This document shows positions 10,157 to 28,632 of a stretch of DNA of 64,000 bases, piece after piece. Within the stretch, counting starts at the first letter, position 1; every line of letters starts with the position of its first letter. The notes below the pieces were generated by a model. That model saw only the letters and a program-made list of their open reading frames with translations, was not told the DNA's origin and did not search any database. Made by a program: the position numbers and the translations under genes. This stretch comes from Wenjunlia tyrosinilytica. Its GTDB lineage: Bacteria; Actinomycetota; Actinomycetes; Streptomycetales; Streptomycetaceae. The stretch is taken from assembly GCF_014646055.1 (NCBI RefSeq), contig NZ_BMMS01000008.1, positions 62,001-126,000 on the forward strand, written 5' to 3'.

Positions 10157-10897
10157 GTGGATCCCGTGATCGAGGCAGCGGAGCTTCCGCCGGCGCCGGA
10201 GCAGGCCAAGGCGGTTTTCGGTGAGTATTTCCCGCAGGCCGTGCGGTACGCGGAGCTCCTGGCGGACGCGGGCGTGCGCCGCGGTCTCATCGGGCCGCGT
10301 GAGGTGCCCAGGCTCTGGGAGCGCCACCTGCTGAACTGCGCGGTGCTGTCCGAGGTGGTTCCCGCCGATGTCTCCGTGTGCGACGTCGGCTCGGGCGCCG
10401 GGCTGCCGGGTATTCCGCTGGCGCTCACCAGGCCCGATCTTCGGATCACACTCCTGGAGCCGCTGCTGCGGCGGACGACCTTCCTGGAGGAGGCCGTGCG
10501 TGAGCTGGGGCTGGAGAATGTGACCGTGGCACGTGGGCGTGCCGAGGAGATGGTGGGCAAGCTGCCTCAGGTGGATGTGGTCACCGCCCGTGCCGTAGCG
10601 CCCCTGGACCGCCTCGCCGGATGGGGGCTTCCCCTGCTGCGCCAGCGCGGGGAGATGCTCGCGCTCAAGGGCGACACGGCCGAGGAGGAGCTCGCGGCGG
10701 CGCGGGACGCCCTGCACAAGCTCGGCGCGGTGGAGTGGTCCGTGGTGCAGGCGGGCGAGGATGTGCTCGAGGTGCCGTCCACCGTCGTGCGAGTGCTGGT
10801 GGGGGAGAGCCCCGGCGGGGTGAAGGCCGCGGCCCGGCGGGCCAAGGCCGTCCGGGCCAACCGCTCGGCCCGCGGAGGCGGCCGACGCCGGCGCTGA
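10157..10897 (+). CDS. rsmG: 16S rRNA (guanine(527)-N7)-methyltransferase RsmG (GidB)
   Basis: 246 residues. A SAM-binding motif VCDVGSGAGLPGIPLAL (about residues 75-91) and LRITLLEPLLRRTTFL identify RsmG, which methylates G527 of 16S rRNA; its loss gives low-level streptomycin resistance in Streptomyces. The GTG at 10157 is chosen for the GGAAGGA upstream. The frame stays open back to 10070, but that part overlaps the jag terminator tail. The C-terminus is Arg/Gly-rich. It precedes parAB, as is usual near actinobacterial origins. Confidence 0.94.
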   Translation: MDPVIEAAELPPAPEQAKAVFGEYFPQAVRYAELLADAGVRRGLIGPREVPRLWERHLLNCAVLSEVVPADVSVCDVGSGAGLPGIPLALTRPDLRITLLEPLLRRTTFLEEAVRELGLENVTVARGRAEEMVGKLPQVDVVTARAVAPLDRLAGWGLPLLRQRGEMLALKGDTAEEELAAARDALHKLGAVEWSVVQAGEDVLEVPSTVVRVLVGESPGGVKAAARRAKAVRANRSARGGGRRRR

Positions 10898-11042
10898 GGC
10901 GCTGGTCGTCCCGGCTGCTTTCCCGGGGCGGTCGGCCCATCAGCGGCCGGTCGGCCATCGGCCCATCGGTCTCTGGGTAAATCGGGACAGTATCCACAAA
11001 GCGGAGTGTCGCGCCCTGGATACGACCGGCCGCGGGGCATCG

Positions 11043-11058
11043 TGTTTCACGTGAAACA
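11043..11058. other. parS: parS centromere site 1 (upstream of parA)
   Basis: A perfect 16-bp palindrome, TGTTTCACGTGAAACA, in the rsmG-parA interval about 210 bases before the preferred parA start. ParB binds such sites to form the origin-proximal segregation complex. Its position also suggests ParB feedback on the parAB promoter. Confidence 0.95.
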
Positions 11059-11254
11059 TCGTCGCTCGCTGCTGCCAGGGATCCTCAGCCGTGGTCGCGC
11101 TTCGACCACGGCCCCTGCTCCCCTTCCTCCACCCGCTCCCGCTCGCGCACGACGTGCCACCACGCGGAAGCCCGCCGCCACGGGGGATTCCCGCACCGAA
11201 GAGGTGGATTCGGGCGCTGAACCAGGGCCCTCTGTAGTTTCTGGTGCCGAAGGC

Positions 11255-12361
11255 ATGGCAGGCTCTGTATGTCGTGAGTCTGAAGTCCCTGAGAGCGCAC
11301 CGGAGAGTGAACCCTTGCGGTCCGAATCCAATGTCGCGGGTCCGGTGACCGATCCGGTCCCGGGTCCGCGGAGCGAGTCGGGTGGGACGGACCTGTCCCG
11401 TGAGACACCGCCACCGATGGACGACACCCCCATCGGCCGGGCTGCCCAGCTCGCAGTCGAAGCCATGGGACGTGCCGGTGAGGGCCTGCCCCGACCGGAA
11501 CAGACCCGTGTCATCGTCGTCGCCAACCAGAAGGGCGGCGTCGGCAAGACCACCACGACGGTCAACCTGGCCGCCTCCCTGGCCCTGCACGGCTCCCGCG
11601 TCCTGGTGGTCGACCTCGACCCGCAGGGCAATGCCTCCACCGCGCTCGGCATCGACCACCACGCCGAGGTGCCCTCCATCTACGACGTGCTGGTGGAGAG
11701 CAAGCCGCTGGCCGATGTGGTGCAGCCGGTGCCGGACGTGGAGGGTCTGTTCTGTGCCCCCGCGACCATCGACCTGGCGGGCGCCGAGATCGAGTTGGTC
11801 TCGCTGGTGGCCCGGGAGAGCAGGCTGCAGCGGGCCATCCAGGCGTACGAGCAGCCGCTGGACTACATCCTCATCGACTGCCCGCCGTCACTGGGCCTGC
11901 TGACCGTCAACGCCCTGGTGGCCGGCGCCGAGGTGCTCATCCCCATCCAGTGCGAGTACTACGCGTTGGAGGGGCTCGGTCAGCTGCTGCGGAATGTGGA
12001 GTTGGTGCGCGGCCACCTCAACCCCGACCTCCATGTCTCCACCATCCTGCTCACGATGTACGACGGCCGTACGAGGCTGGCCTCACAGGTGGCGGACGAG
12101 GTGCGCACCCACTTCGGCAATGAGGTGCTGCGTACGAGCATTCCCCGCTCGGTGCGTATCTCCGAGGCGCCGAGCTACGGGCAGACCGTGCTCACCTACG
12201 ATCCCGGGTCCAGCGGGGCCCTCTCGTACTTCGAGGCGGCCAGGGAGATCGCCCTGCGGGGCGTCCCCACTGCCGGCCGGATCGATGTCTCGTACGACGC
12301 ACCGCAGAACCACATGAACAGCCAGCAGAGCAGCGCCACTTCGGAGGGTTTCAGTGACTGA
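11255..12361 (+). CDS. parA: Chromosome partitioning ATPase ParA (Soj family)
   Basis: A 368-residue Walker-type ATPase with the deviant Walker A KGGVGKTT (about residues 93-100), [10 protein letters not shown] and [14 protein letters not shown]. ParA dimerises on ATP and guides ParB-parS complexes, notably during sporulation septation. The frame opens at 11006. The ATG at 11255 ([11 protein letters not shown]) is favoured from memory of homologues, but it lacks a well-spaced ribosome site; 11417 ([10 protein letters not shown]) is the alternative. The disordered N-terminus contains DLSRET, encoded by what looks like a decayed parS (11393-11406). It overlaps parB by 8 bases. Confidence 0.94.
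11393..11406. other. Degenerate parS-like sequence inside parA
   Basis: CTGTCCCGTGAGAC matches 10 of 14 positions of GTTTCACGTGAAAC. It encodes LSRET in the same reading frame in which the intact parS of parB encodes VSRET. This suggests a former parS that lost its palindrome while the codons were kept. ParB affinity is probably low. Confidence 0.45.
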
Positions 12362-13430
12362 GCGACGCAGGGGACTCGGCCGTGGGCTGGGTGCCCTGAT
12401 CCCTCCGGCAGCGGACGGCGCGGGAAGTGGGACCGCCGGTCCCACCGTGATCAGCCAGGGTGCCTCCTCGCCGACGGCGGTCCCCCAGGTCTTCACCGCC
12501 GAGCGTGGCGTGACCGCGGCGAGCCTCGCGGTCGTGGGGAACGACGTTTCACGTGAAACCGAGGGAGTCGCCGGAGCGCACTTCGCCGAGCTGCCGCTCG
12601 ACGCCATCACACCCAACCCGCGCCAGCCCCGTGAGCACTTCGACGAGGACGCTCTGCTCGAACTGGTCCACTCCATCAAGGAGGTGGGCCTGCTCCAGCC
12701 GGTCGTGGTGCGCAGGACCGGGCCGGAGCGCTACGAGCTCATCATGGGCGAGCGCCGGTGGCGGGCGAGTCGGGAAGCCGGTCTGGAGCGGATTCCCGCG
12801 ATTGTGCGGGCGACCGAGGACGACAAGCTTCTCCTGGACGCCCTCCTGGAGAACCTGCACCGGGCCCAGCTCAACCCGCTGGAGGAGGCGGCCGCCTACG
12901 ACCAGCTCCTGGAGGACTTCTCCTGCACGCACGACGAGCTGGCCGACCGGATCGGCCGCTCCCGTCCTCATGTCACCAACACCCTCCGGCTGCTGAAGCT
13001 GTCGCCTCCGGTGCAGAGCAAGGTGGCGGCAGGAGTGATCTCCGCCGGCCACGCCAGGGCCCTGGTGAAGGTGGACGACATCGAACAGCAGATCCGGCTG
13101 GCCGAGCGCACCATCGCCGAGGGGCTGTCGGTGCGCTCGGTCGAGGAGATCGTCAGGCTCATGGAGCTGGGGGACATGCCCTCGTCCCGGCCCAAGGGGC
13201 CGCGTGCGGGCAAGCGTCTGTCTCCCGCGCTCGCGGACCTGGGGGCCAGGCTGTCCGATCGCTTCGAGACCCGGGTGAAGGTGGACCTCGGGCAGAAGAA
13301 GGGGAAGATCGTGGTGGAGTTCGCCTCGGTCGAGGACCTGGAGCGGATCCTGGGCGCGATGGCGCCGGGTGAGGGCAAGGTGCTCCAGCAGAGCCTCTCC
13401 GGGGAGAGCGACGAGGACGAGATGGACTGA
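12354..13430 (+). CDS. parB: Chromosome partitioning protein ParB (CTPase, parS-binding)
   Basis: 358 residues with an N-terminal CTP-binding ParB domain (about 80-175; box PNPRQPR and the CTPase motif GERRWR near 131-136), a central helix-turn-helix for parS (about 185-250, with [18 protein letters not shown]) and a C-terminal dimerisation domain. It loads at parS and slides as a CTP clamp to organise the origin. A perfect parS lies within its own coding sequence (12545-12560), encoding VSRET. It is translated in overlap with parA. The terminator downstream contains another parS. Confidence 0.96.
12545..12560. other. parS: parS site 2 (inside parB coding sequence)
   Basis: CGTTTCACGTGAAACC, with a perfect 14-bp core (12546-12559), lies at codons about 65-69 of parB and encodes VSRET in the disordered region before the CTPase domain. 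Confidence 0.92.
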
Positions 13431-13475: not shown

Positions 13476-13525
13476 CCGAAGGGCCGGTTCGACGTTTCAC
13501 GTGAAACGTCGAACCGGCCCTTCGG
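13476..13525. terminator. parS: parB terminator: 50-bp perfect palindrome centred on parS site 3
   Basis: Two 25-bp arms (13476-13500 and 13501-13525) are perfectly complementary with no loop. The centre is the parS core GTTTCACGTGAAAC (13494-13507); the outer arms are GC-rich (CCGAAGGGCCGGTTC). It begins 45 bases after the parB stop, so the RNA would form a long hairpin. The same DNA is a ParB binding site and a probable terminator. Confidence 0.85.
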
Positions 13526-13668
13526 CGTCCGGGGCTTCACCCAGGCGTCCGGGGCGAGCCAAGACGTCCTGGCGTGTCACCCCGATCGCGGTGTTGCCCG
13601 GCGAGGACCCATGGATACGATGCGCTCAGGAAGGCCACGTAGCTTCCCGGCTGTTGTGGAGGACTGCC

Positions 13669-14460: not shown

Positions 14461-14503
14461 GCACCCGATGCCATGTCCGCCGCTCTGGCGGTGGCAGGCG
14501 TCG

Positions 14504-14519
14504 TGTTTCACGTGAAACA
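14504..14519. other. parS: parS site 4 (between convergent acetyltransferase and cwlM)
   Basis: A perfect TGTTTCACGTGAAACA within a longer 24-bp perfect palindrome (14500-14523). It sits in the 111-base gap between two convergent genes, where it may also serve as a short bidirectional hairpin. Confidence 0.94.
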
Positions 14520-14571
14520 CGACCTGTCCGCCCGTCGAGCGCGGCGGCCCCGGGTGGGCGTCGGGAGCGCG

Positions 14572-28588: not shown

Positions 28589-28632
28589 CAGGGGCGGTGT
28601 TTTACGTTGTTTCACGTGAAACACCGCCCCTG
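28589..28632. terminator. parS: pcnA terminator overlapping parS site 6
   Basis: A 14-bp stem CAGGGGCGGTGTTT (28589-28602) pairs with 28619-28632. The descending arm contains the right end of a perfect parS, TGTTTCACGTGAAACA (28608-28623), so the hairpin and the ParB site share bases. It also faces the convergent gene at 28675. Confidence 0.85.

Follow-up and report, generated by a model that had tools for sequence, protein, structure and literature searches.

The window (the whole 64-kb stretch of DNA analysed here) contains a partition locus in which rsmG, parA, parB, a palindrome, a 55-aa open reading frame (ORF) and a GNAT gene follow one another, with an amidase gene and trxA beyond them on the opposite strand; rsmG and trxA were named from their translations. 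parA, as listed, extends over 11006–12361 of the + strand (its true start is perhaps further in) and matches AAA_31 (PF13614, E 4.6e-60 on 11504–12358). parB (12354–13430, + strand) encodes the HTH_ParB, ParB_N and ParB_C domains, as in the ParABS systems of Streptomyces, whose ParB likewise combines ParB_N, HTH and C-terminal domains. The 55-aa ORF downstream of the palindrome has no Pfam match. Two more ParB-like matches (37% identity) lie in opposite orientations on a single contig (G000:C36:12945–13547, − strand, and 10317–10907, + strand) and are perhaps a plasmid partition locus.

Six exact copies of the parS core GTTTCACGTGAAAC are present in the window, against 0.07 expected from shuffles. 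The genome holds seven in total, five of the six in the window lying within 5 kb of parAB, and contains no parS with one mismatch. For comparison, 24 chromosomal parS sites are reported in S. coelicolor and 16–17 in S. venezuelae (PMC4852455, PMC12511625), and binding of ParB at parS in vivo was shown by ChIP-seq in S. venezuelae (PMC4852455). The sites of this genome resemble those of Streptomyces chromosomes in having the exact 14-bp core, in lying near parAB and in occurring as several copies per region. The copy at 13494–13507 is by sequence and place a chromosomal parS, a putative ParB site.

This copy occupies the dyad centre of a 50-bp perfect palindrome (13476–13525) that begins 45 nt past the parB stop codon. 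The two arms (13476–13500 and 13501–13525) are 25 nt each, 100% complementary and separated by 0 nt, and on the + strand they form the 5′ and 3′ sides of a hairpin, as found by arm search and RNA folding. The bases flanking the core are C/G, against T/A in the 16-bp parS consensus. With a match chance of 0.29 per base, calculated from the 70% G+C of the window, the probability that 18 more bases match beyond the 14-mer is about 2e-10 per site, or about 1.5e-9 over the seven parS sites of the genome. No other perfect inverted repeat in the window is as long, and among those of at least 13 bp the palindrome alone has no spacer; the next-longest repeats have 20 bp with a 6-nt loop and 18 bp with a 5-nt loop. 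No second copy of the arm was found in the 8.49-Mb assembly with up to three mismatches allowed, which rules out a repeated or mobile palindrome.

Folded as RNA, the palindrome is predicted to form 23 bp closed by an ACGU tetraloop (−47.3 kcal/mol), and the 141-nt region around it has a folding z of −7.4 against dinucleotide shuffles. It is thus a stable, G+C-rich hairpin shortly past a stop codon, as in an intrinsic terminator. The initial annotation had placed parS at the centre of this palindrome and had read the same bases as a long hairpin after parB, and both points are borne out: just past parB, one stretch of bases matches parS and can fold into a very stable hairpin. Its description of the arms as fully complementary and loop-free applies to the DNA; in RNA, four nucleotides must stay unpaired as a loop.

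Hairpins past parB in related genomes

The comparison set comprised 213 parB 3′ flanks, mostly from Streptomycetaceae. Thirty genomes came from a first search and 80 records were named entries of Streptomyces type; the remaining genomes were spread over 17 genus codes of the family. Genus code g9 shares identical hairpins and ParBs with named Streptomyces (locus L120 equals L044, S. netropsis), so the family compared is Streptomycetaceae; the window genome has a genus code other than the Streptomyces-like g9 within the same family. In a strand-symmetric search, 157 of the 213 flanks contained a strong inverted repeat, against none of 71 shuffled ones, and the number of hairpins rises above 157 once bulges are allowed.

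The relation of parS to these hairpins varies. An exact or one-mismatch parS lies at the exact hairpin centre in genus codes g1, g3, g10, g14 and g15, in a few Streptomyces (S. klenkii, S. netropsis, S. hiroshimensis and S. griseocarneus) and in one genome from a second family of the order. Thirteen further g14 genomes and g4 have an exact parS off centre, where it makes one arm, often opposite a decayed second parS. Nearly all other sampled Streptomyces (g7, g9 and the named set) keep the hairpin, usually about 60–75 nt past the stop codon, and lack parS, the apex often reading GTGTTCCGG...CCGGAACAC. A Streptomyces series from GTGTTTCACGTGGAACAC through a split form to GTGTTCCGG..CCGGAACAC looks like decay of parS, which is suggestive only. 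On the ParB tree, the parS state changes eight times and is clustered (0 of 500 shuffles gave a number as low); the polarity of gain and loss is undecided because a number of the deep branches are long and weak. Genomes of code g19 (L025–L030), which belong to another family of the order, have few or no standard parS, and within the first 150 nt past their parB GTTTCACGGGAAAC adjoins the hairpin, perhaps reflecting a shifted parS specificity.

The letters of the stem differ widely between genomes: CGAAGGGCCGGTTCGAC in this genome, CGGGCTCGGGGTTGGGT in L015, CTGGGCGGTTCCC in L012, CGATGGGTGCAT in g14, GAAGGGCCCTT in g3 and AAGGGCGGGTGGT in S. klenkii. We tested covariation in an ungapped alignment of 30 distinct parS-centred parB 3′ hairpin sequences. 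Paired cells amounted to 98.3% against 76.5% in shuffled alignments, a percentage that is inflated by the choice of rows alone, since these were picked for a centred inverted repeat. Cells with compensatory changes on both sides numbered 108 against 31 shuffled, and the covariation score was 0.59 against 0.16, with every slid register far lower. Watson–Crick or G–U pairs are formed at positions 8–17 from the centre in 29–31 of 31 sequences, at position 18 in 27 and at position 19 in 24, and pairing becomes chance-like from about 20–21 bases off the centre. Two observations are independent of the choice of rows, namely that stems of different genera differ by compensatory changes and that hairpins persist where parS is lacking.

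Conservation of the outer arms in relatives was the check proposed in the initial annotation, and the arms are kept: it is their pairing that is conserved, while their letters turn over. Because letters changed and complementarity stayed, the objection that the outer arms are not conserved fails in the strong sense. The pattern in these alignments indicates that selection maintained complementarity during sequence turnover.

Long arms at parB and at other gene ends

Elsewhere in the same genome parS has no perfect arms of comparable length. The other five copies in the window have perfect arms of 7–12 bp only, and those at 11044, 12546 and 15770 have 7–8 bp. Two of these serve as internal controls without extended arms, one in the rsmG–parA region (11044–11057) and one within the parB coding sequence (12546–12559). 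A third parS (14505–14518) has 12-bp perfect arms (14500–14523) and lies between the convergent GNAT and amidase genes. Between the convergent cca gene and a lipoprotein-like ORF, a second parS hairpin (28589–28632) has a 19-bp stem, including G–U pairs, in which parS (28609–28622) occupies the loop and the right arm. The seventh parS, on another contig (L216, G000:C6, at 1501), sits in the pyrE–fba gap within an 18-bp palindrome stem with one mismatch.

The same division was seen across genomes. For the 331 parS that precede parB or lie within it, the median arm is 7–8 bp and folding is at shuffle level, whereas the 57 parS just past parB have a median folding z of −5.0. Perfect arms of at least 18 bp surround 16 of these 57 and none of the 331; among 60 parS within parB, not one has arms of 14 bp. 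Since parS elsewhere is armless and hairpins occur without parS, each can exist without the other, and the two simply have bases in common. Long arms are thus not a requirement of ParB and, judging from these comparisons, appear to be kept through selection for RNA pairing.

Fusion of parS with a hairpin also occurs at the ends of other genes. Perfect parS-centred palindromes lie at the rsmG 3′ end with 25–26-bp arms (L227, L229 and L230), and at the end of the GNAT gene, opposite trxA or an amidase gene, with arms of 27 bp (L042), 24 bp (L051 and L055) and 25 bp (L227). A further one, of 18 bp, lies in an unassigned gap of genome G009 (L257), and in L227 three successive gaps each carry a perfect parS palindrome. 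Among gene-end parS other than that of parB, 71% lie in a stem of at least 11 bp, against 19% of parS planted randomly in the same gaps; because gene calls were crude and rows related, with a contaminated 'CDS' class, this difference counts as support, short of proof. A layout rule in Streptomycetaceae is conceivable, and we put it forward tentatively, somewhat short of an even chance: parS sites at gene ends (parB, rsmG, GNAT, cca and pyrE) would have been built recurrently and independently into terminator hairpins, and the constraint on the terminator would preserve these centromere sites, which would lie at the boundaries between transcription units, where ParB clamps sliding along the DNA would meet least transcription.

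Several variants of this arrangement were observed. Genomes of code g3 have perfect parS palindromes with 18–26-bp arms in successive gaps around parAB, all with different stems (L227 at 918, 1701 and 4271; L229 at 4478; L230 at 549). At L245 (1501–1539) and L252 (1501–1536), two close parS copies form both arms of one 23–27-bp stem. In the GNAT–trxA gap of many Streptomyces loci (for example, L067 at 7871), parS stands immediately 3′ of a terminator stem, GGGCCCGCCCC..GGGGCGGGCCC-GTTTCAC, and its TTT may double as the short U-tract of that stem.

A literature search for parS within terminators returned nothing relevant; older Streptomyces work (Kim et al. 2000, Jakimowicz et al. 2002, Livny et al. 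2007) could mention it. The literature that we found treats parS as a 14–16-bp palindrome only, whereas here a 50-bp palindrome that follows parB has the core as its centre of symmetry. The closest precedent is provided by the neisserial DNA uptake sequences, which supply inverted repeats of rho-independent terminators (PMC2397512) and are likewise short protein-recognised motifs in gene-end hairpins. The likeness is nearest for the paired parS of L245 and L252. In Neisseria, however, two non-palindromic motifs form the arms and serve DNA uptake, whereas in the parS hairpins usually one palindromic motif, which serves segregation, forms the apex.

The putative parAB transcript end

Of the 8 nt that follow the stem (CGTCCGGG, 13526–13533, + strand), one is U, so there is no canonical U-tract, and a scan for canonical terminators found none at the palindrome. 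Searches for known RNA families gave sub-threshold matches to long hairpins only, the best being mir-6715 (30.6 bits against a gathering threshold of 82) and naRNA4 (27.3 against 59.5), which we took as chance. With no U-tract, the hairpin could at most belong to the U-poor class of terminators, which needs none. A stable stem with few U is a major described class of 3′ ends in S. clavuligerus (PMC8269248), and Term-seq places Streptomyces 3′ ends about 4 nt past the stem (PMC8269248, PMC12207403). Structured U-poor ends lie near the stem base, typically 66–76 nt from the stop codon (PMC12207403); the stem base of the palindrome is 95 nt from that of parB.

The palindrome shares with these structured ends (the HS-U-lack class and the I-shaped intrinsic terminators; PMC8269248, PMC12207403) a very stable long stem tens of nucleotides past the stop codon and few U. 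It differs in that its apex is a predicted protein-binding site and that its stem is perfect down to the 4-nt loop. Because the hairpin fits this class, we take it as the parAB 3′ end, which Term-seq precedents would put at or slightly past 13526, within the U-poor segment. The outer arms are most likely part of a base-paired 3′-end element, a candidate U-poor terminator of parAB.

Proposed sharing of bases by ParB loading and transcript ending

The same bases very likely serve two functions here, as parS and as a 3′-end hairpin. In the reading that we favour, and hold to be probable, the palindrome combines the 3′-end hairpin of the parAB RNA with a central 14-bp ParB-loading site, and its arms are kept by RNA pairing. 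The RNA form would act as a U-poor intrinsic terminator, or as the stop and protecting structure of a Rho-assisted 3′ end. In the DNA form, the central 14 bp would be an ordinary ParB-loading site, the outer arms being selected for pairing in RNA and not by ParB. Hairpin and parS would share bases because parS, itself palindromic, fits the apex of a stem at no cost in pairing. While the locus is untranscribed, ParB–CTP clamps would load at the centre and slide off both ways; in each round of parAB transcription, RNA polymerase would cross parS, the hairpin would fold and the transcript would end about 4 nt past 13525.

An active link between the two functions had been proposed in the initial annotation: ParB loading at parS could affect how transcription of its operon ends, and readthrough could disturb loading. 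Such coupling, with ParB changing termination or passage of polymerase through the hairpin gating ParB loading, would give feedback on the ParB level. In several genera parS does lie inside a transcribed 3′-end element adjoining parB, and P. aeruginosa ParB at the intergenic parS3 and parS4 represses adjacent promoters (reviewed in PMC7022226). The geometry at the palindrome is unfavourable, however. The right arm is made only once RNA polymerase has left parS, so ParB bound there would stall the polymerase before the hairpin forms. In vitro, ParB condensates anchored at parS make RNA polymerase pause more but do not keep it from transcribing through them (PMC10681803), most sampled Streptomyces retain the hairpin without parS, and the same fusion is found at the ends of rsmG, GNAT and cca, none of which encodes ParB. 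Together, the geometry, the passage of polymerase in vitro and the hairpins that lack parS make regulatory coupling unlikely, and little cross-talk between ParB and termination would be expected at this site.

The palindrome might instead act at the level of DNA, as a cruciform or as an extended recognition site for the ParB C-domain, SMC or another dyad-binding protein. Perfect dyad symmetry without a spacer would fit this, and pairing kept through changes of letters would suit a cruciform as well as an RNA. The direction of wobble, which could reveal selection on the sense RNA, does not decide between them, with 27 GT against 5 AC in the parS-centred stems, whose rows are related, and 18 against 15 in the parS-less hairpins. 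Sequence-specific contacts are hard to reconcile with the unconserved letters of the arms, parS elsewhere in the same genomes is armless and the parS-less hairpins have loops of about 7 nt, so that we regard a DNA-level element as very unlikely. Just as improbable is a mutational by-product, in which a short terminator at or around parS was perfected by template-switch quasi-palindrome repair and pairing reflects drift and conversion with little function: perfect arms do come and go quickly, and intermediates with two parS or a one-arm parS exist (L014, L041, L147–L169, L245 and L252), but parS-seeded repair predicts arms away from gene ends, where those of at least 15 bp are essentially absent among the 331 upstream and internal sites (the single case is a misassigned 3′ site), and the vast majority of Streptomyces retain a hairpin that lacks parS. 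Termination nevertheless does not call for arms this perfect and spacer-less, and DNA-level effects or mutation may have contributed to the two-function element that we favour.

In these bacteria, deletion or relocation of parS would also change a 3′-end hairpin, and the resulting phenotypes would possibly be confused. The natural variants, with parS centred, off centre or absent, allow a direct test. The fusion of parS with hairpins would account for the positions of part of the parS sites, and it bears on the question of how transcription near the origin is reconciled with the nucleation and sliding of ParB. The palindrome would thus be one stretch of DNA retained for two unrelated duties, loading of the centromere and ending of a transcript.
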